This document shows, piece by piece, positions 38,519-50,164 of a stretch of DNA of 64,000 nt. The stretch is from Xanthobacter agilis (GTDB lineage Bacteria > Pseudomonadota > Alphaproteobacteria > Rhizobiales > Xanthobacteraceae). Where the stretch lies: positions 124,001 through 188,000 of the forward strand of contig NZ_JABWGX010000006.1 of the NCBI RefSeq assembly GCF_021730435.1, read 5' to 3'. Each line of letters begins with the position of its first letter. The first letter of the stretch is position 1. The notes below the pieces were generated by a model. The model was not told the origin of the DNA. It did not search any database and was given only the letters and a program-made list of their open reading frames with translations. The position numbers were made by a program, and so were the translations under genes.

Positions 38519-38544
38519 GGCGGGTCCCACGCATCTCGGTTTTC

Positions 38545-38576
38545 GGGCGGGGCAGCCGGGCTGCCCCGCCCTTTTT
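38545..38576 (+). terminator. Intrinsic terminator of trxA
   Basis: An 11-bp perfect GC stem (38545-38555 with 38561-38571), loop CCGGG, followed by TTTTT at 38572-38576. The T run touches the stop codon of the convergent gene at 38576. Confidence 0.93.
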
Positions 38577-40594
38577 CATGACACCGCGGGCTCCGGCGTC
38601 CTCTGGTAGTGCGGAACGATGTCCACGAACACCGCGCCGTAATGCGGGTTCGCGAACAGGCCCTGCAACGGCCGCATCCGCCCGAGCCGGTCGAGGAGCG
38701 CCTTCGCCTTGGGGCTGGAGACGGTGCCGCAGACCTGAAGCGCGATCGCGCGCCGGTGCTGGGCCTGGTTGTTCATGAGGAACAATTGGGTCGCGAGGTT
38801 GCCCGCCATGTCGGACGGCATGTCGCCGGGGAACTGGGTGCCGATGACGATGCCGACGCCGAAGGCCCGGCCCTCCCGCGCCAATTGCTCCAGGCGACGC
38901 GAATCCTTCACCCGGTGGGCTTCGTCGCACACCAGGAGGCGGGTGAGCCGGCGCGGCTGCTCGCCCCTGAGTAGGTGGCCGTGCAGCTGCACGATGAGGA
39001 TTTCGGCGATGGCGGTCTTGATGTCGTCGCCGGGGAGGGTGGACAGCTTCAGGCACACCCGGCCCTGAAAGAATTCCGCGGCGCGGTTGGGCGAGGGGCC
39101 GCCGGTGCCGAACAGGCGAAAATCCTTGAGCGCGCCGAGGCGGCCCACCAGCGCACCGTTGTCGCCGGCCTCGGCCAGGAGATCGACCACACGATTGAAG
39201 CTCGGCCACGCGATGGTGTCCGGCTGAACCCATTCCTGCGGATCCACCCCGCATTCGCGATAGGCCGCGCAGATGGCCTCCCTAAGGCGCGCCTCCTGGA
39301 CCGCGCCGAGGCGGAACACGCGGGCGAGGATGCCGGCGATCTCATAGGCGTGCTCGATGGGCTGGGCTCCCGATGCGCCCCGCGGCGGCGGCTCCAGCGG
39401 ATTGAAGGGCAGGCCCTGGGCGCGGACGTCCACCACCTTGATGCCGAGCGGCCCGGAGAAATCCGGCCCGCAATAATCTGCCTTGAAATCGAAGATGGTC
39501 ACGGCAAGGTCTTCGCGGCAGGCGGCATCGATGAGCACGCGGATGGTCTGGGTCTTGCCCGAGCCGGCGTCGCCGGTGACCAGCACGGAGAAATTGTTGA
39601 GATGCCCCGGCGGCGGCGCATAGGGCGCCCAATAGACCGCCTCCCTGGCCTCGGTGGCGCCGATGAGCACGGGGAACGGCGCGGCGGTCCCGTTCACCGC
39701 AACCGGCCCCTCCTTGCCCGTCGCTCCCGTTCCCGCGCCCCCCACCGGCGGCAGGGGCTGCGCGCGGTCGCCGTCGCGGTCGGGCGCGATCACCTCGGGC
39801 AGTGCGATGAGCGGCAGCAGCGGCGCGACGAGGCGGCGCAGCCACTGGGCATCGCGCCGCCAGGTGATGAGGCCGGCCTCGTGCTGCCAGCGGGCGAAGA
39901 AATCATGGGCCCGCGCCAGGGTGTCCCATTCGGTGTCGTTGAGGTAGAGCACATCGCCGCCGATGGCGCGCAGCTTGCGCAGCGCCGGTGCCACCTGGGA
40001 CGTGGGGCTCTTGGCGAAGCCGTTGGTACGCAAGGCGAACGGGATCGCGCCGTCGCTCGCCTCCAGGAACCGGGTGATTTGGTCCGCCAGCTTCTGGTTG
40101 CGGTTGGGCGCCTCGCACAGAGCGAGCTCGCGGCGCTCGATCACCTGTCCGTTTTGCTGGAGCTGGATGTCGATGACGGGGGTGCGCAGATCATCGCCGA
40201 GATGGGTGACGCGCACCTCGGCAGGGTCCGCCGTGACGTGCTCGCGGCTGGCCTCGTGGGCCCACCATGCCAGAAGCTCGGCCTTCTTGGTGTCGAGCAG
40301 GCGGCGGGTGGTGGTGGCGCCCTGGTCCTTGAAATCCTCCCACAACTTGGCGAAGTCCATCTCCCGCGCGGCTGGCGGGGGCGGGACGATGGTGCCGAGA
40401 AATTCCTTTTCCGAGGGCAGGCGGCCGCGCTTCATGGCGTCGGTGCGGAATTCCGACACCCGGCGCAGGGCGGCGCGGATGCTCTGCGTCGCCTCGATGG
40501 CTGGCATCAGCCACGGCGGCAGCGGCTCCAGGGAGCCGGGCGCGGCCGGCAGATGGGCGCGTGTCCGCAGCAGGGACAGCCGCTTGGCCACCAC
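38576..40594 (-). CDS. HerA/FtsK-like ATPase (probable C-terminal part of a split two-ATPase protein)
   Basis: 672 codons from a GTG at 40594. Residues ~1-115 look like the helical lid and linker of an AAA/STAND ATPase rather than a true protein beginning. Residues ~330-620 form a HerA/VirB4-like P-loop domain: Walker A GDAGSGKT (341-348), DFKADY (369-374), Walker B VCDEAH (555-560) and GTQFP (585-589). The frame is the same as the upstream ATPase gene and is separated from it by one TGA and seven sense codons. The purine-rich GGGAG abuts the GTG pair, too close for normal initiation. Best read as the second half of one ~1015-residue protein. Function unknown; the context suggests genome defence. 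Confidence 0.7.
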   Translation of the reverse strand: MVAKRLSLLRTRAHLPAAPGSLEPLPPWLMPAIEATQSIRAALRRVSEFRTDAMKRGRLPSEKEFLGTIVPPPPAAREMDFAKLWEDFKDQGATTTRRLLDTKKAELLAWWAHEASREHVTADPAEVRVTHLGDDLRTPVIDIQLQQNGQVIERRELALCEAPNRNQKLADQITRFLEASDGAIPFALRTNGFAKSPTSQVAPALRKLRAIGGDVLYLNDTEWDTLARAHDFFARWQHEAGLITWRRDAQWLRRLVAPLLPLIALPEVIAPDRDGDRAQPLPPVGGAGTGATGKEGPVAVNGTAAPFPVLIGATEAREAVYWAPYAPPPGHLNNFSVLVTGDAGSGKTQTIRVLIDAACREDLAVTIFDFKADYCGPDFSGPLGIKVVDVRAQGLPFNPLEPPPRGASGAQPIEHAYEIAGILARVFRLGAVQEARLREAICAAYRECGVDPQEWVQPDTIAWPSFNRVVDLLAEAGDNGALVGRLGALKDFRLFGTGGPSPNRAAEFFQGRVCLKLSTLPGDDIKTAIAEILIVQLHGHLLRGEQPRRLTRLLVCDEAHRVKDSRRLEQLAREGRAFGVGIVIGTQFPGDMPSDMAGNLATQLFLMNNQAQHRRAIALQVCGTVSSPKAKALLDRLGRMRPLQGLFANPHYGAVFVDIVPHYQRTPEPAVS

Positions 40595-40615
40595 CTCCCG
40601 GCGAAAATCCGGGGC

Positions 40616-41623
40616 TCAGGCGCCCAACAGCACCGGGAACGGTGCCTCGCGCTCGATGCGGTCGCGATCGGAAATGGCGAGCGCCCGGCCGCCACGCCCG
40701 CCGTCGGTGATGTCGTCATATTCATCGGAGACGACGGCGAGCACGACCGCGCAATTGGGGATGCTTTCCACCAGTCGGACCGCCTGGGTGAGGGCGTGGA
40801 CGAACAGGCCTTCGTCTCCCAGCCGGGTGGTGTTCTCCACCTGATCGAAGCCCAGCACGAGGCAACCGTGAACGAGCTGCGCCAAGCGGCTGAGGCTGCG
40901 GATGGCGTCGATGCGCTGGCTCGGGGTGGCGATGGGCGGCAGCCTTAAGGGGGCGAGGCGGCTGTCCGCGTGGCCATGGCGCAGGTAGTTGAGGGCGGAG
41001 GGGTCGTTGAAGCCGGCCAGCAGGATGGCGCCGACGAGGCCGGGGTCGAGCCCTTCCGCGCTCCAGGCGCGCGCCTCGCGTGCGATATTCTGGCCGATCT
41101 TGAGGGCGATTTCGATTTCCCCGTCGCTTTCGAGGTCCTCGATCTCCTCCTGGAACGTGGCCTGCGTCGCTTCTTCCACATAGGCCTGAAGCAGCTTGTC
41201 CGCGAGCCGCCGCAGCGGGCTCAGGCCCGCCTCGTCGCCGAAATGGCGGGCCGACAGTTCGCGGATGAGCGCATCGAGCAACCATACGTCGTAAGTGGCG
41301 ATGGTGACCGGCGCCGTCAGCTGGAGGATGGCGGGATAGACGGCATAGGCACGATGCTCGGTGATGGAGGCGAAGTCGCGCAGCGTGGTGGTGAGCACAT
41401 GGCTTTTGCCGGAGCCGGCATCGCCCTTGATGAGGGCGATGCGCGCGCCAGGGCTCGGACTGAGCTTCAGCGCGTGGACGATGGCATCGAAAATGGCGCT
41501 CCGCGCCTCCTTCTGATGCTCGCCCACATTCAGCTCGGTCAATTCCCGGGCATTGGTGAAATTGGCAATGGTGGTGAACAGGTCGTCGTTGCGGGCATCG
41601 AGAAAGGCGGATGTGAGGGGCAT
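40616..41623 (-). CDS. AAA/STAND-type ATPase (probable N-terminal part of the split protein)
   Basis: 335 residues from the ATG at 41623, preceded by GGAGATAGG. Walker A KGDAGSGKS (66-74), Walker B LVLGFDQVEN with Asp260 and Glu263, sensor-1-like VVSDEYDD (298-304), and a truncated arginine/lid region DRIERE at the very end. The TGA at 40616-40618 stops it exactly where the ATPase lid should follow, and the lid-like sequence resumes in the same frame beyond the stop. It starts 4 bases after the stop of the preceding cassette gene, so it belongs to that operon. No known family name can be given. Confidence 0.7.
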   Translation of the reverse strand: MPLTSAFLDARNDDLFTTIANFTNARELTELNVGEHQKEARSAIFDAIVHALKLSPSPGARIALIKGDAGSGKSHVLTTTLRDFASITEHRAYAVYPAILQLTAPVTIATYDVWLLDALIRELSARHFGDEAGLSPLRRLADKLLQAYVEEATQATFQEEIEDLESDGEIEIALKIGQNIAREARAWSAEGLDPGLVGAILLAGFNDPSALNYLRHGHADSRLAPLRLPPIATPSQRIDAIRSLSRLAQLVHGCLVLGFDQVENTTRLGDEGLFVHALTQAVRLVESIPNCAVVLAVVSDEYDDITDGGRGGRALAISDRDRIEREAPFPVLLGA

Positions 41624-41627
41624 TGGC

Positions 41628-42731
41628 CTATCTCCGACCGGTGATGACGAAATGGACGCAGTCCCGGCCCCAGGCCGCTTCGCTGCGCAGCCGGAGGTCG
41701 CGATCCATGCGCTCGGGCATGTCGAGCCGGCCCAGCTCCAGAAGGTTGGCATAAGCGGCGGCGATGAGGCGCGCCTTGAAGCTTTGCAGGGAGCCGGCGT
41801 CGGGGTGTTCGCGGCCATAGGCGTCATAAACCTGGGCGATGGCGACGCGCCCCTGGAACGGGGGCGTGGTGAGCGCCGCCGCCACCTGCCGCACCCGCTC
41901 CGCGAAGCCCGCCCCGTCGGCGCCATTGACGGTGGGCGTTGCGGCTGGTGGGGGCGTTGGCGTGGGATGTGGCGACGCCGCGCCCATCCCTCCGGCGCGC
42001 GCGAGCGACAGGCGGAGGACGCGGAAGACGGCGGCCTTATCGTCCGCTTCGGGCAGGCCCACGGCGGCACCGGTGAGCGCGTTCAAAACCTCGGTCTTGT
42101 CCTTCTCGCGGACCGGGCGGTGTTCCGGAAGACCGCCGAGGCCGGCCAGGATCACCCATTCCGTGATGCCGAGCGTCTTGATGATCGGCATCCGGCTCGT
42201 GCCGAGCAGGGGACCGAGCCCCGCCTTCAGCGTCCGCCAGACCAGTTCCTCGCACACAGCGTTGAGCCCGATGGTTTCCTTGGGCAGGCCGAAGGCGGTC
42301 GCGATGATGGCGGCTTGCCGCTCCTTCGGCTTGGCGAGCCGTGTCGATGCCCCGTTTGGATCAAGCCCCAGGCACAGCGGCAGCAGGCGCTGCGTCATCA
42401 CTTTTGGCCATGTGAGCTTGGGGCCGGACCCGAGCAGGGCCGAAGCGGCGTCGCGCCCGGCGTCGGTCAGCACCACCTTGGCGTCGGCGGGATTGGGTTG
42501 GGTCCGGCTCCGGCCTTTCGGCTTGGCCTCGAGGGTGGCAAGGCCACGCTCCGCCAGTTCCGAGGCCGCCGCCACGATCGGTTCGGCGCCGAGCAGGTCC
42601 TTGAGCTTGTCGGCCAGCGCCTTTAGCGTCGGTGCCGTCTTCTGGCCACCGAGGTAGGCGAGCAGCAGATCGCCGGCGGCGAGGGGGGCGAACCGGGAGA
42701 GGTCCGCGCGGGGGAAGGCGGGGTGTGACAT
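41628..42731 (-). CDS. Winged-helix-like protein of the ATPase/nuclease cassette
   Basis: 367 residues from the ATG at 42731, whose A is shared with the stop of the nuclease gene (TGATG). I do not recognise the family. Residues ~5-105 read like a winged helix (helical DLLLAYLGG...LKALADKLKD, then a basic hairpin and VVLTDAGRDAASALLG, a phrase typical of wHTH proteins). A second helical block (about 120-185) and a C-terminal block (about 285-367) have a similar flavour, separated by a Pro/Ala/Thr linker near 255-275. A DNA-binding or adaptor subunit linking nuclease and ATPase is plausible but inferred. Confidence 0.6.
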   Translation of the reverse strand: MSHPAFPRADLSRFAPLAAGDLLLAYLGGQKTAPTLKALADKLKDLLGAEPIVAAASELAERGLATLEAKPKGRSRTQPNPADAKVVLTDAGRDAASALLGSGPKLTWPKVMTQRLLPLCLGLDPNGASTRLAKPKERQAAIIATAFGLPKETIGLNAVCEELVWRTLKAGLGPLLGTSRMPIIKTLGITEWVILAGLGGLPEHRPVREKDKTEVLNALTGAAVGLPEADDKAAVFRVLRLSLARAGGMGAASPHPTPTPPPAATPTVNGADGAGFAERVRQVAAALTTPPFQGRVAIAQVYDAYGREHPDAGSLQSFKARLIAAAYANLLELGRLDMPERMDRDLRLRSEAAWGRDCVHFVITGRR

Positions 42732-43642
42732 CAGGCTCCTGCTCCCTTTTGGGCCGCACGCGAAAGGGTGTCGGCGATGTCCCGCCACACCCCGACCGGG
42801 TTTTCGATGACGGTGGCATTGCTGAAGCGGGTCACGCGGTAGCCCTCGGCTTCGAGGTCGCGCTGCTTGTCCGCGTCCATGCGGCGGCGGCGCGGGGCGT
42901 CATGCTCCCGGCCGTCGATTTCCACCACGAGGCGGGCCTCGACGCAGGCGAGGTCCACCTCGTGGCTGCGCCTGGCCCGGCCGTTCAGGCGGGCATTGGG
43001 CGTGAAGCGGCCCCGTGTTTCGGGTCGCGCCTCGAGCATGTAGAACAGGATGCCTTCGCACGGGCCGCGCAGCAGGGGCACCCGCCGTCCGGCGGCGATC
43101 TGGGCCATCACCCGGCGTTCGGCGTCGTCCACCGGCACCAGCCCTTGCAGGGCCAAGCCCACGAAGGGTTGCGCCAGGGCCGGATCCAGCAGGCTTTCCA
43201 CCATGTCCGCGATGCCGCAGGTGAGCGCGAGCGCGAGCTTCGGTTGCCGCTCCGAGAGCTGGGCCGCCACCGGCAGCGCCTCGCGCACTGAACCGGGCAG
43301 CCGCAACACCGGTGATCGGCGCGTAGTGCCGCCCGACGGCAGGCGTGCGCGATAGGCCGCGAGGGCGGCCTCGGCGTCGGCCTGGGGCGCGGTGATGATC
43401 ACCCGCTGGCGGGCGTCCGCCCAGGTGCCCAGCCACACCCGGGCATCCAGCGCGGAGCGGGCATTGATGATGGTGATGATGGGAAAGCCGCTGGCCCGCA
43501 GGCGATCATGGGCGGCGAGAAGCTGTTCGGGTGCGTCAAGAAGGGTGCGAAGAAGAGCCATCCGCCGGAGCCACGCCTGCAACCACTGCAGATCCCGTGT
43601 AGCAACCCGAACGCGCACAACGCAAGGTCGTCCTGAGGCCAT
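42731..43642 (-). CDS. DUF559/Vsr-like PD-(D/E)XK endonuclease
   Basis: 303 residues; ATG at 43642 with CCAAGGTG about 9 bases upstream (a GTG four codons earlier is possible). The C-terminal ~110 residues are a DUF559-type restriction-endonuclease-like fold: helix with Glu196 (PCEGILFYMLE), EVDLA with Asp230, and VVEIDGREH with Glu241-x-Asp243, followed by RDLEAEGYRVTRFSN. All expected catalytic residues are present. The N-terminal ~190 residues match nothing I know. First gene of a coupled cassette of nuclease, winged-helix-like protein and double ATPase. A DNA-cleaving effector is the natural reading. Confidence 0.78.
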   Translation of the reverse strand: MASGRPCVVRVRVATRDLQWLQAWLRRMALLRTLLDAPEQLLAAHDRLRASGFPIITIINARSALDARVWLGTWADARQRVIITAPQADAEAALAAYRARLPSGGTTRRSPVLRLPGSVREALPVAAQLSERQPKLALALTCGIADMVESLLDPALAQPFVGLALQGLVPVDDAERRVMAQIAAGRRVPLLRGPCEGILFYMLEARPETRGRFTPNARLNGRARRSHEVDLACVEARLVVEIDGREHDAPRRRRMDADKQRDLEAEGYRVTRFSNATVIENPVGVWRDIADTLSRAAQKGAGA

Positions 43643-43737
43643 CGGCCGCGACACCTTGGTCGCGACACCCGTCTGGGGCGCGTGTCATCGCCCGCGCGAT
43701 GGGGACCGGCCTGCCGTCCCCGTCACGGGACGGAGGG

Positions 43738-47069: not shown

Positions 47070-49133
47070 TCAATGTCCGTTGCGGGCCTTCAGCCGGGCG
47101 CTGCCGGCGGCAATCAGCCGGTCGGCGATCATGCCGATGAAGGCCACCGAAAGGCCCGCCACCAGGCCCAGGCCCACGTCGGCCTTGGCGAGGGCGGCAT
47201 AGGTCACCTGGCCGAGGTCGCGGGTGCCCACCAAAGCGGTGATGACCAGCATGGAGAGGGCCAGGAGAATGGTCTGGTTGAGGCCCAGCAGCATGTCGGG
47301 CACCGCCAGCGGCAGCCGGATGCGGGTGAGGATCTGCCGTCGCGTGCAGCCGCTCATGACGCCCGCCTCGATCAGGTGGGGCGACACCTGCGCCACGCCG
47401 TGGGCGGTGTAGCGGATGGCGGGCGCGATGGCGTAGAGCACGATCGCGATCAGGGCGGTAAAGTCGCCGACCCGGAACAGCATCACGATGGGGATGAGGT
47501 ACACGAACGCCGGCAGCGTCTGCAGGGTGTCGATGATCCATTCCACCACGGTCCGCAGCGCCGGGCGCTGGGCGCAGGCGATGCCCACGGGCACGCCGAT
47601 CAGCACCGAGATCATCACCGCCACGCCGCACAGATAGACCGTGATCATGGTTGCCGGCCACAGCCCCACCACCGCCATGAAGGCGCACATGAGGCCCACC
47701 GTGAGCGCGAGCCGCACGCCCCCGAGCCAGTAGCCGGCAAGGGCCGTCACCGCCACCACCCAGGGCCACGGCAGGGCCAGCATGAACTGCTTCACCGGCG
47801 CCAGGATATTGAGCAGGATGAAGGTTTTCACCGCATCGAGGGGGCCGTTGAAATTGATGTTGATCCAGGACACGAGATCGCCCCAGAACGGCGCCGTGGA
47901 CAGCCGCCAGCCCTCCGGATAAGGCGCGATGGTGGGCCAATGGGCCGCCGCGAGCCAGCCGGCCGCCGCCAGCACCAGCGCGGCATAGACCGCGTGCCGC
48001 ACCCGCCGCCGGCTGTGCTCGGCCCGCCGGTTGCGCCGGGCGTTGAAGGCGAGCGCCTGGGCGAAGCGGTCGAGCAGGATGGCGAGCACCGTGATGGCGA
48101 GGCCGGCTTCCAGGCCGCCGCCGATGTCGAGCCGCCGTAGCGCCGCCAGCACGTCCCAGCCGAGGCCGCCGGCGCCGATCATGGAGGCGATGATGACCAC
48201 GTTGAGGGACAGCATGATCACCTGGTTCACGCCCACCATGAGCGCGGGCATGGCGGAGGGCACCAGCATTTTCCAGGTGATCTGGTGGCGGGTGCAGCCG
48301 GTCATGCGGCCCAGCGCCTCGATCTCCTCCGGCACCGCGCGGATGGCGACGATGGTGATGCGCACCATGGGCGGCACCGCATAGATGATGGTGGCGATCA
48401 TGGCCGACACCGGCCCGAAGCCGAACAGGATCAGCATGGGCAGGAGATAGGCGAACACCGGCATGGTCTGCGCCACGTCCAGCAAAGGCGAGATCAGCCG
48501 CTCCAGGGTGCGCGAGCGCACGCAGGCGAGCCCCAGCAACAGGCCGCCGATGGCGCCGATGATCGACGACACCAGCACCGAGGCGAAGGTGACCATGGCG
48601 CTGGTCCACTGGCCGAACACGGCGAGATAGGCAAGGCCGAGCGCCATGCCGAGCGCGAGCCGCAGCCCGCCGATGGCATAGGAGACCGTGGTGGCCGCGA
48701 TCACCAGGGAGAACCAGGGGATCGGCGGGAATAGCTGCACCGCCTGCGAGCCTTCGCCCTGCATCACGCCGGTGGCGAAGATGGCCTTGGCCATGGTGAG
48801 CGGAATGTTGAGCACGGCCGAGAGGGCGCGGGTGAGGTCGCGCACCGTGAACAGGCCGAATGAGGCGCTGTTCATCAACCATTTCATGACATCGGAGATC
48901 CACGCCGCAAGCGGCAGGTGCCACGCCGCGGGATATTTCACGGCCCAGGCCGGCAACAGGTCGGCCGGCAGCATCACTACCACCGCGGTGAGCACCGCCA
49001 CCGCGGGCCACACCAGCCGGCGCCAGCGGAAGGGCGCGGCGGGGGGCGCCTGCTCGGGGGCGTTCTGGCGGGCGTCTTGGTGGGTCGCTTGGCGGGTAGC
49101 TTGGCGGGTCGCTTGGGTGGTCGCCATGGTCAT
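47070..49133 (-). CDS. Glycine betaine/proline-type ABC permease, two fused permease domains
   Basis: 687 residues with two homologous ProW/OpuAB-type halves (about 50-340 and 350-680), each with several membrane segments and a transmembrane-permease EAA loop (EALGRMTGCTRHQI near 278, and EAGVMSGCTRRQI near 595). A single polypeptide can supply both permease subunits. The ATG at 49133 overlaps the ATPase stop (ATGA). The first ~20 residues are a run of Gln-Ala-Thr-Arg repeats before the first membrane segment. Together with the ATPase and binding protein it forms a complete importer for a quaternary amine. Confidence 0.9.
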   Translation of the reverse strand: MTMATTQATRQATRQATHQDARQNAPEQAPPAAPFRWRRLVWPAVAVLTAVVVMLPADLLPAWAVKYPAAWHLPLAAWISDVMKWLMNSASFGLFTVRDLTRALSAVLNIPLTMAKAIFATGVMQGEGSQAVQLFPPIPWFSLVIAATTVSYAIGGLRLALGMALGLAYLAVFGQWTSAMVTFASVLVSSIIGAIGGLLLGLACVRSRTLERLISPLLDVAQTMPVFAYLLPMLILFGFGPVSAMIATIIYAVPPMVRITIVAIRAVPEEIEALGRMTGCTRHQITWKMLVPSAMPALMVGVNQVIMLSLNVVIIASMIGAGGLGWDVLAALRRLDIGGGLEAGLAITVLAILLDRFAQALAFNARRNRRAEHSRRRVRHAVYAALVLAAAGWLAAAHWPTIAPYPEGWRLSTAPFWGDLVSWININFNGPLDAVKTFILLNILAPVKQFMLALPWPWVVAVTALAGYWLGGVRLALTVGLMCAFMAVVGLWPATMITVYLCGVAVMISVLIGVPVGIACAQRPALRTVVEWIIDTLQTLPAFVYLIPIVMLFRVGDFTALIAIVLYAIAPAIRYTAHGVAQVSPHLIEAGVMSGCTRRQILTRIRLPLAVPDMLLGLNQTILLALSMLVITALVGTRDLGQVTYAALAKADVGLGLVAGLSVAFIGMIADRLIAAGSARLKARNGH
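49075..49120. repeat. 12-bp tandem repeat in the permease 5' end
   Basis: About three to four imperfect copies of a 12-bp unit (TCGCTTGGCGGG and variants), encoding on the minus strand the repeated tetrapeptide Gln-Ala-Thr-Arg. A likely slippage site; changes by whole units keep the frame. Confidence 0.7.
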
Positions 49134-50164
49134 GCGGCCACGCTCCGGGGCTCGCGGCCCACGAGCACATCGATCATGGCGAGCCGGTCGATGGCGCCGA
49201 GGATGCGGCCGTTGTCCACCACCCCATAGACCGCGTCCGTGGATTCCACCTGATGGGCGAAGGCGGCGATGCGGGCGCGCGCATCGATCAGACCGGCGAA
49301 CCGCGCGTCGGCCGGGGCCGGGCGCATGACGGCGCGGGCGGTGAGGATCTTGGCGCGCGGCGCCTCGCGGGTGAAGGCGCGCACATAGTCGGTGGCGGGG
49401 GTGAGCACGAGCTCTTCCGCCGAGCCGATCTGCTCCACCTTGCCGTCCTTCATGATGGCGATGCGGTCGGCGATGCGCGCCGCCTCGTCGAAATCGTGGG
49501 TGATGAAGACGATGGTCTTCTTGAGCATGCCTTGCAGGCGCAGCACCTCGTCCTGCATCTCGCGGCGGATGAGGGGGTCGAGGGCCGAAAAGGGCTCGTC
49601 CAGGAACCACAGATCGGGATCGGCGGCGAGCGAGCGGGCGATGCCCACGCGCTGCTGCTGGCCGCCCGACAATTCGCTCGGGAAGCGGGCCTCGCGGCCC
49701 TTGAGGCCCACGAGCTCGATCATCTGGTGGGCCTTGGCCTCGCGCTCGGCGCGGGTGCGGCCCTGGACCTCCAGCGGGAACGCCACGTTCTGCAGCACGT
49801 TGAGATGGGGCAGCAGCGCGAAATGCTGGAACACCATGCCCATCTGGTGGCGGCGGATCTGGATCAGCTCGCTCTCGGAATATTTGAACAGATCGCGCCC
49901 TTCGAACAGCACGGCGCCGGCGGTGGGCGCGGTGAGGCCCGACAGGCAGCGCACCAGCGTGGATTTGCCCGAGCCCGACAGGCCCATGATGACGAAGGTC
50001 TGCCCGCGCTGGATCTCAAGATTGACATCGCGCACGGCGGCGGTGACGCCCGCTTCGGCCAGGGTGGCGGCATCGGCTGAAAGGCGTCCGTCGACGACGA
50101 ACTTCCGGGCTTTCGCCCCATAGAGCTTGGCGACGTCGCGACAGGCGAGAACGGGATGGCTCAT
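49130..50164 (-). CDS. proV: Glycine betaine/proline-type ABC transporter ATPase
   Basis: 344 residues. Walker A GLSGSGKST, Q-loop FQHFALLPH, signature LSGGQQQR, Walker B LWFLDEP and the H-loop THD are all present. As in ProV, an extended N-terminal region precedes Walker A and a degenerate CBS-like tail follows, possibly an osmosensing or ligand-sensing domain. The start is the ATG at 50164. It sits between the binding-protein and permease genes and overlaps the permease. Confidence 0.93.
   Translation of the reverse strand: MSHPVLACRDVAKLYGAKARKFVVDGRLSADAATLAEAGVTAAVRDVNLEIQRGQTFVIMGLSGSGKSTLVRCLSGLTAPTAGAVLFEGRDLFKYSESELIQIRRHQMGMVFQHFALLPHLNVLQNVAFPLEVQGRTRAEREAKAHQMIELVGLKGREARFPSELSGGQQQRVGIARSLAADPDLWFLDEPFSALDPLIRREMQDEVLRLQGMLKKTIVFITHDFDEAARIADRIAIMKDGKVEQIGSAEELVLTPATDYVRAFTREAPRAKILTARAVMRPAPADARFAGLIDARARIAAFAHQVESTDAVYGVVDNGRILGAIDRLAMIDVLVGREPRSVAA

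Follow-up and report, generated by a model that had tools for sequence, protein, structure and literature searches.

Between trxA and rfbA, in a stretch of 64,000 nucleotides from Xanthobacter agilis (NZ_JABWGX010000006.1, positions 124,001 to 188,000; this whole stretch is called the window throughout), the minus strand carries a compact cassette of three genes, which encode a predicted DUF559 nuclease, a winged-helix-type protein named MID here, and a double ATPase in which an Orc/CDC6-type AAA+ domain is joined to a HerA/FtsK motor. The features of the locus are as follows, with positions counted from the first letter of the window.

42731..43642, minus strand: gene of the DUF559 (PD-(D/E)XK, Vsr-like) nuclease (PF04480, E 2.1e-13); whether it starts at 43642 or 43561 is uncertain
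41628..42731, minus strand: gene of MID, a winged-helix-type protein of 367 aa with an N-terminal winged helix-turn-helix-like (wHTH-like) domain predicted by AlphaFold2
40616..41623, minus strand: double-ATPase gene, first part, Orc/CDC6-type AAA+ domain (AAA_16, E 7.2e-8)
40616..40618, minus strand: in-frame TGA inside the double-ATPase gene, recognised by alignment with one-piece homologs
38576..40594, minus strand: double-ATPase gene, second part, a presumed inactive restriction endonuclease-like (REase-like) domain followed by the HerA/FtsK motor (HerA_C, E 9.1e-8)
38545..38571, plus strand: terminator-like hairpin with a T tail from a terminator scan, between trxA and the 3' end of the cassette (convergent genes)
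38522..43705, no strand: inserted region, as compared with the trxA-rfbA junction of the sister species G004; the ends are approximate, not base-exact

The genes are closely coupled: the nuclease and MID genes share one base in a TGATG overlap at 42731, and MID is separated from the first ATPase open reading frame (ORF) by 4 bp (41624-41627). These junctions and the four minus-strand ORFs are real, as an initial annotation of the window had described them, and of its estimate of three to four genes the lower figure stands. Four separate genes were rejected since, in the alignment with one-piece homologs, the third and fourth ORFs (40616-41623 and 38576-40594), which lie in the same frame, are one gene; the supposed in-frame junction between genes is a TGA stop inside it. 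In the homolog on the plasmid pXAUT01 of X. autotrophicus Py2, a single ORF of 455 aa passes through the position of this TGA. Similarly, of the 9 Rhodomicrobiaceae loci read (clade A, see below), 7 encode the double ATPase in a single ORF of 1016-1125 aa; one of the remaining two ends at a contig edge and the other, L051, encodes a shorter protein in a different element. Because the stop lies inside one gene, the cassette consists of three genes, one of them broken.

A GTG at 40594, behind the stop, is a possible restart and has a GGGAG-like stretch directly upstream. The window copy probably does not work as one machine, and the stop would mean loss of function; it is the only ATPase copy found in the window's own genome. 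The pXAUT01 copy is broken as well, i.e. its DUF559 gene is split over two frames and the 3' part of its ATPase is lost. Between the window and pXAUT01 homologs dN/dS is 0.27-0.40 (four aligned stretches of 343, 332, 99 and 170 codons), which points to purifying selection on the cassette genes.

In G004, trxA and rfbA are adjacent, with about 190 bp between them, their products are 96% (TrxA) and 95% (RfbA) identical to those of the window, and the synteny continues. In the window the two genes are 5.2 kb apart, i.e. the cassette is an insertion of about 5 kb relative to G004, and the initial view that the conserved run stops after trxA was mistaken. The site comparison depends on G004 only, because the other eight of the nine stretches behind trxA, taken from 14 Xanthobacter genomes, contain neither the cassette nor the window's downstream genes, apart from a weak match (36% identity) of L166 to 49130-50164. 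No terminal repeats, terminal inverted repeats or target duplication were seen at the insertion ends. The ATPase is present in 2 of the 14 Xanthobacter genomes (G000 and G013), and these two also give the strong nuclease matches (2.4e-195 and 4.6e-53) among the four genomes that the nuclease query reached at E <= 0.001; the other two matched at 3.9e-4 and 5.6e-4. The second Xanthobacter copy, that of X. autotrophicus Py2 (G013), sits on pXAUT01, a conjugative plasmid, so that a mobile gene neighbourhood is found both there and in the insertion relative to G004. The broken plasmid copy (L021 / L054, Xaut_4853-4862) lies between a monooxygenase cluster, annotated as methane/phenol/toluene hydroxylase, and an IS3-type element.

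Relatives of the double ATPase fall into three clades. Clade A comprises the two Xanthobacter copies and those of the Rhodomicrobiaceae, where it occurs in 8 of 8 genomes. The clade B motor gene was found in 76 of 79 genomes of the Hyphomicrobium family f2 (59 of the 61 good ones). Its query also matched 37 of the 397 genomes in a sample of the order; one of these (G119) carries clade C and the other 36 were counted as clade B by their high identity, with nine further families represented (f3, f10, f17, f19, f26, f33, f34, f39 and f46). Three clade B matches (G840, G865 and G883) were flagged with a stop. Clade C spans two phyla: it is found in Methylobacterium aquaticum, Nonomuraea gerenzanensis and Tsukamurella tyrosinosolvens (of 72,556 records, these 3 matched), in G119 and G304 (2 of 249 genomes) and in family f42 (6 of 149 genomes, G304 among them). 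Where the f42 search flagged a stop within a clade C match, it is the terminal one. In G119, a Rhodomicrobium genome, a full clade C cassette occurs besides a clade A pair. Aligned by profile, clade C and A/B correspond over 990 columns (E 8.6e-61). At E 1e-60, the clade A profile returned only the window's own genome among 398 genomes of the phylum; of 177 candidate stretches in viral contigs 0 were confirmed as relatives, and phages gave no match.

In a tree of 31 HerA/FtsK domains, clades B and C stand together (100/100), while clade A groups with DndH-type domains of Priestia, Plesiocystis and a Sandaracinaceae metagenome-assembled genome (MAG) (95/95); the best tree does not unite clade A, which may still have a single origin. 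In the tree of the AAA+ domain (20 rows) A, B and C form one group each. Several rows are long-branched, so details of the trees are unsure. Taken together, the motor tree and the AAA+ tree fit an exchange of the motor domain, i.e. the 'capture' of Rakesh, Aravind and Krishnan (2024; PMC10853773), as described in the sections of that paper covered here. Two further observations on the motor domain should be mentioned. Firstly, L051 1-10605 (G298, MAG fen_921) encodes a protein of 691 aa with a clade A-type HerA/FtsK domain in an apparent mobile element, with neighbours that by eye are primase-, helicase-, recombinase- and transposase-like genes. Secondly, a small operon on the Synechococcus elongatus plasmid pIITB3_1 (L055 3887-8772) contains genes for an ATP-binding protein, a metal-dependent hydrolase and a HerA-type ATPase related to the window motor domain, and similar proteins are found on several cyanobacterial plasmids.

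The same gene order of nuclease, winged-helix-type protein and double ATPase recurs in other taxa of two phyla, so the recurring unit proposed in the initial annotation is borne out. Complete cassettes are present in Tsukamurella (with overlapping genes), Methylobacterium, Nonomuraea, G119, G304, G900, G918 and G952. A DUF559 homolog was found in 9 of the 10 clade C loci (L150 being a deletion remnant) and at both loci of Xanthobacter; 9 of the 10 clade C loci also encode a small winged-helix-type protein between the nuclease and the motor. The remnant (L150 561-1902, in G976) appears to join the start of the DUF559 gene to the end of the clade C motor gene and is a third case of decay. The profile used in the search for DUF559 was made from six of these proteins, whose own matches are therefore built in, and the search covered fetched stretches of 5.5 to 19.5 kb; within these, no DUF559 was found near the motor in the 9 Rhodomicrobiaceae loci of clade A or the 19 loci of clade B (10 from f2), and because only these stretches were searched a nuclease partner may lie elsewhere in the clade A and B genomes. 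In 8 of the 9 loci of clade A and all 19 of clade B, the double-ATPase gene has a MID homolog upstream. The neighbours of the clade A pair are common to the four loci of genus g77 and differ in other genera. Upstream of the clade B pair, 18 of 19 loci (L119, L121-L126, L128-L131, L022-L028) have a divergent gene for a protein of about 200-250 aa that is lipoprotein-like by eye.

The AAA and HerA-like families given initially to the ATPases are correct, with AAA_16 in the first part and TrwB and DUF87 besides HerA_C in the fourth ORF; their division into two separate genes is not. The AAA+ domain of the window has a Walker A motif reading GDAGSGKS, and its Walker B position reads DQ. The same DQ was found in 13 different proteins (5 domain-bearing ones in a motif survey and 9 alignment rows that cover the domain), and it may mark an ATP-binding switch instead of an ordinary hydrolase. 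The position was checked in the window (40829-40858) and in relatives of all three clades, and it is DQ, not DE. The HerA/FtsK domain has Walker A GDAGSGKT, Walker B CDEAHR and a sensor TQ. In the fourth ORF the PADLOC model of DndH matches with E 9.4e-28, mad8 with E 5.6e-12 and the best HerA model with E 1.4e-6. The clade A alignment matches DptH by hhalign (E 3.1e-79), only the C-terminal motor being shared, and a Priestia protein whose gene follows dptF and dptG shares 38% identity with the HerA domain over residues 320-665. These similarities suggest that the motor is close to the C-terminal domain of DptH (DndH).

The structure of the double ATPase was modelled with AlphaFold2 on the Rhodomicrobium homolog L058 (pLDDT 60, pTM 0.37); the HerA half is poorly modelled, so its identity rests on the sequence matches. 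Foldseek with this model returned the DndH C-domain 7es4 first (E 1e-5), followed by Cdc6/Orc1 1fnn (E 6.2e-5) and 2qby (E 1.9e-4), which places the AAA+ domain of this homolog in the Orc/CDC6 family; the Pfam ORC-CDC6-like family itself was matched only in the clade C protein L127, with E 0.004. Residues 441-526 of L058 are predicted to form alpha-beta3-alpha-beta, the order of the restriction endonuclease core, with pLDDT of about 80. The EcoT38I REase is a weaker Foldseek match, at rank 21 (E 0.020, prob 0.96), for which the range of the alignment is not given, and no E-x-K motif was seen by eye in the domain in the homolog alignment. The middle domain is presumed to be an inactive nuclease fold. 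The helices that follow it in the model (541-602), where the class predicted in PMC10853773 has the C-terminal wHTH of Orc/CDC6, were not identified as a wHTH.

The nuclease domain of the DUF559 protein occupies residues ~226-293, and the N-terminal ~200 aa have no recognised fold. The conserved D and VVE-DG residues are present in six in-frame alignment rows (the alignment includes the pXAUT01 ORF as called, with its second part out of frame). The PD-(D/E)XK endonuclease appears intact, as the initial annotation held, and we predict that it is the active REase of the operon. MID had no Pfam, PADLOC, NCBIfam or PHROGs match at the thresholds used, and its profile found nothing below E 0.8 among PDB sequences. 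Its AlphaFold2 model (pLDDT 66) has an N-terminal part, with pLDDT 80-88 in residues 11-70, that looks like a winged helix. All Foldseek matches of MID have E >= 0.029; MarR/PadR-type regulators are among its neighbours, and SspB is at rank 38 (E 0.78, prob 0.12). NCBIfam matches of the cassette ORFs were all far under their cut-offs, Rfam and tRNA scans gave 0 matches, and the terminator scan found 2 sites where shuffles gave a mean of 2.1, i.e. no excess.

It is instructive to compare the cassette with known systems. As the initial annotation had supposed, PADLOC found no whole-cassette match; only the motor was matched (DndH, mad8), and any other PADLOC system was accordingly rejected. The window HerA/FtsK domain groups with DptH-type proteins of Priestia, Plesiocystis and the Sandaracinaceae MAG, but the rest of DptH is not shared and no relation to DptF or DptG was found; a plain DndFGH/DptFGH system was rejected on this ground (hhalign with DptF: prob 7.4 over 24 columns, the P-loop only; with DptG: prob 0.1). 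A similar argument applies to MADS: the mad8-like domain is present, but PADLOC found no other MADS component among the four ORFs. HerA-SIR2, HerA-DUF4297 and other HerA effector pairs resemble the cassette in having a HerA motor and a separate effector gene, but the window matches HerA models more weakly than DndH, its effector is DUF559, and its motor is fused to an AAA+ domain. A literature search that left aside preprints and supplements found no paper joining DUF559 to anti-phage, to DUF87 or to an endonuclease-ATPase operon, and, again with preprints outside the search, none joining MADS and mad8. DUF559 came up together with HerA and defence in 2 papers, and DptH in connection with phosphorothioation in PMC10853773 only.

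The closest correspondence is with the class predicted in PMC10853773. The sections of that paper covered here describe a counter-invader class made up of an Orc/CDC6 AAA+ domain, an inactive REase, an active REase, a HerA/FtsK motor and a wHTH, and propose that DNA being segregated or transferred is intercepted by the motor; this is a prediction, and those sections report no experiment on it. The cassette shares the Orc/CDC6-type AAA+ domain, the HerA/FtsK motor (from family scans, DndH/DptH profile matches and Foldseek), the predicted active REase (DUF559) and the mobile setting, and presumably also the inactive REase-like domain adjoining the AAA+ domain and the wHTH protein. It differs in that the window copy is interrupted, and in that neither DUF559 nor Hyphomicrobium, Rhodomicrobium or Xanthobacter is named in the main text of the paper as far as covered. 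Since its domain set fits the class, the kind has already been published as a prediction, and by those same sections the window cassette is a broken member of it; the initial description as undescribed cannot be upheld.

Our interpretation, which we regard as probable, with considerable room for doubt, is that the window holds a restriction-type defence cassette of three genes, a member of the HerA/FtsK-capture class with an Orc/CDC6 ATPase, that was acquired by horizontal transfer and has since been disabled. In intact relatives the Orc/CDC6-type AAA+ domain would load on DNA; recognition of a DNA feature or an entry structure would fall to the inactive nuclease-like domain together with the winged-helix protein; the HerA/FtsK ring would pump the invading DNA and the DUF559 nuclease of the same operon would cut it. 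The sporadic spread, i.e. 6 of 149 f42 genomes and 2 of 14 Xanthobacter genomes, agrees with this interpretation.

Several points weigh against this interpretation. Two families have relatives of the motor among their core genes, and the clade C locus L146 has no DUF559. The neighbours at five clade C loci (L127, L138, L146, L148 and L149) are mostly housekeeping or transport genes, so that the defence-island setting suggested at first was not found; Tsukamurella stands apart among the clade C loci scanned, in that its neighbours include an annotated VapBC-type pair and a DEAD/DEAH helicase. Confidence in the L058 model is low overall and lowest in the HerA half, the Foldseek matches of this model also include VirB4, RdrA (rank 5) and BrxC (rank 9), and PHROGs assigns the motor to a terminase family (E 1.3e-11). 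MID has no profile relation to DptG (prob 0.1) and a weak one to the small clade C protein (prob 10), so their kinship is not established by sequence. Finally, the stop might be a sequencing error in the draft assembly. As to the gene neighbours in general, they are unusable as proof of defence, and the PADLOC mad2/mad3 matches of methyltransferases and an ABC transporter among them look generic.

A different explanation, which we consider unlikely and yet the most serious competitor, is that the system is fundamentally machinery for the handling of cellular DNA, be it in segregation, repair or replication-associated pumping, with the nuclease as an option and the Xanthobacter copies as stray, decaying ones. 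This would account for a motor gene found in 76 of 79 Hyphomicrobium-family genomes (clade B) and in 8 of 8 Rhodomicrobiaceae genomes (clade A), for the neighbour common to 18 of 19 clade B loci and the neighbours common to clade A loci within g77, and for the lack of DUF559 at 9 clade A and 19 clade B loci, the rest of these genomes not having been searched. On the other hand, forms with the nuclease have a sporadic distribution (6 of 149) and are found in two phyla, the clade A motor groups with DndH of restriction systems (95/95), and G119 has both the clade A pair and the full clade C cassette. Because the relatives are core in two families, the defence role first proposed cannot be assumed for the whole family.

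It is also conceivable, but rather improbable, that the window copy still works in a split form, with a restart at the GTG at 40594 and the AAA+ and HerA parts made as two proteins. Both halves keep their Walker motifs and an open frame, and the GGGAG-like stretch precedes the GTG directly; however, this presumed ribosome site is poorly spaced, the relatives read include no split form (the flagged stops of G840, G865 and G883 in clade B were not followed up), and the pXAUT01 copy is decaying too. Least probable of all is transposition or mobile-element machinery with an AAA+ regulator and a TnsA-like nuclease: the cassette is an insertion, and Tn7-like elements contain Orc/CDC6-type ATPases and PD-(D/E)XK nucleases, but the cassette ORFs match no transposase or integrase family, and its ends have no visible terminal inverted repeats or target duplication.

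The core relatives of the motor deserve a comment. The near-universal presence of the motor gene in the Hyphomicrobium and Rhodomicrobium families, with no DUF559 nearby in 28 loci, is possibly new and suggests domestication to a core task. Rhodomicrobium reproduces by budding, and the members best known from the two families form their buds through a hypha or tube. Hyphomicrobium buds at the tip of its prostheca, according to the part of PMC3894282 covered here. It is a long shot that a counter-invader DNA-pumping machine gave up its nuclease and turned into core chromosomal equipment of the Hyphomicrobiaceae and Rhodomicrobiaceae, where it might move or guard chromosomal DNA bound for the bud, window-type cassettes being the still-mobile form; that it moves DNA through the hypha is speculative. 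Since clade B is present in nine further families, shared ancestry may be the whole explanation instead of a hyphal role.

With these cassettes, the predicted motor-plus-restriction class gains compact members of three genes (DUF559 - wHTH - Orc/CDC6-HerA) from two phyla, which can be tested in the laboratory. At the same time, the double motor that is near-universal in two families of Alphaproteobacteria, at loci with no such nuclease found, raises the question of whether a defence machine was domesticated for chromosome handling, or the reverse.

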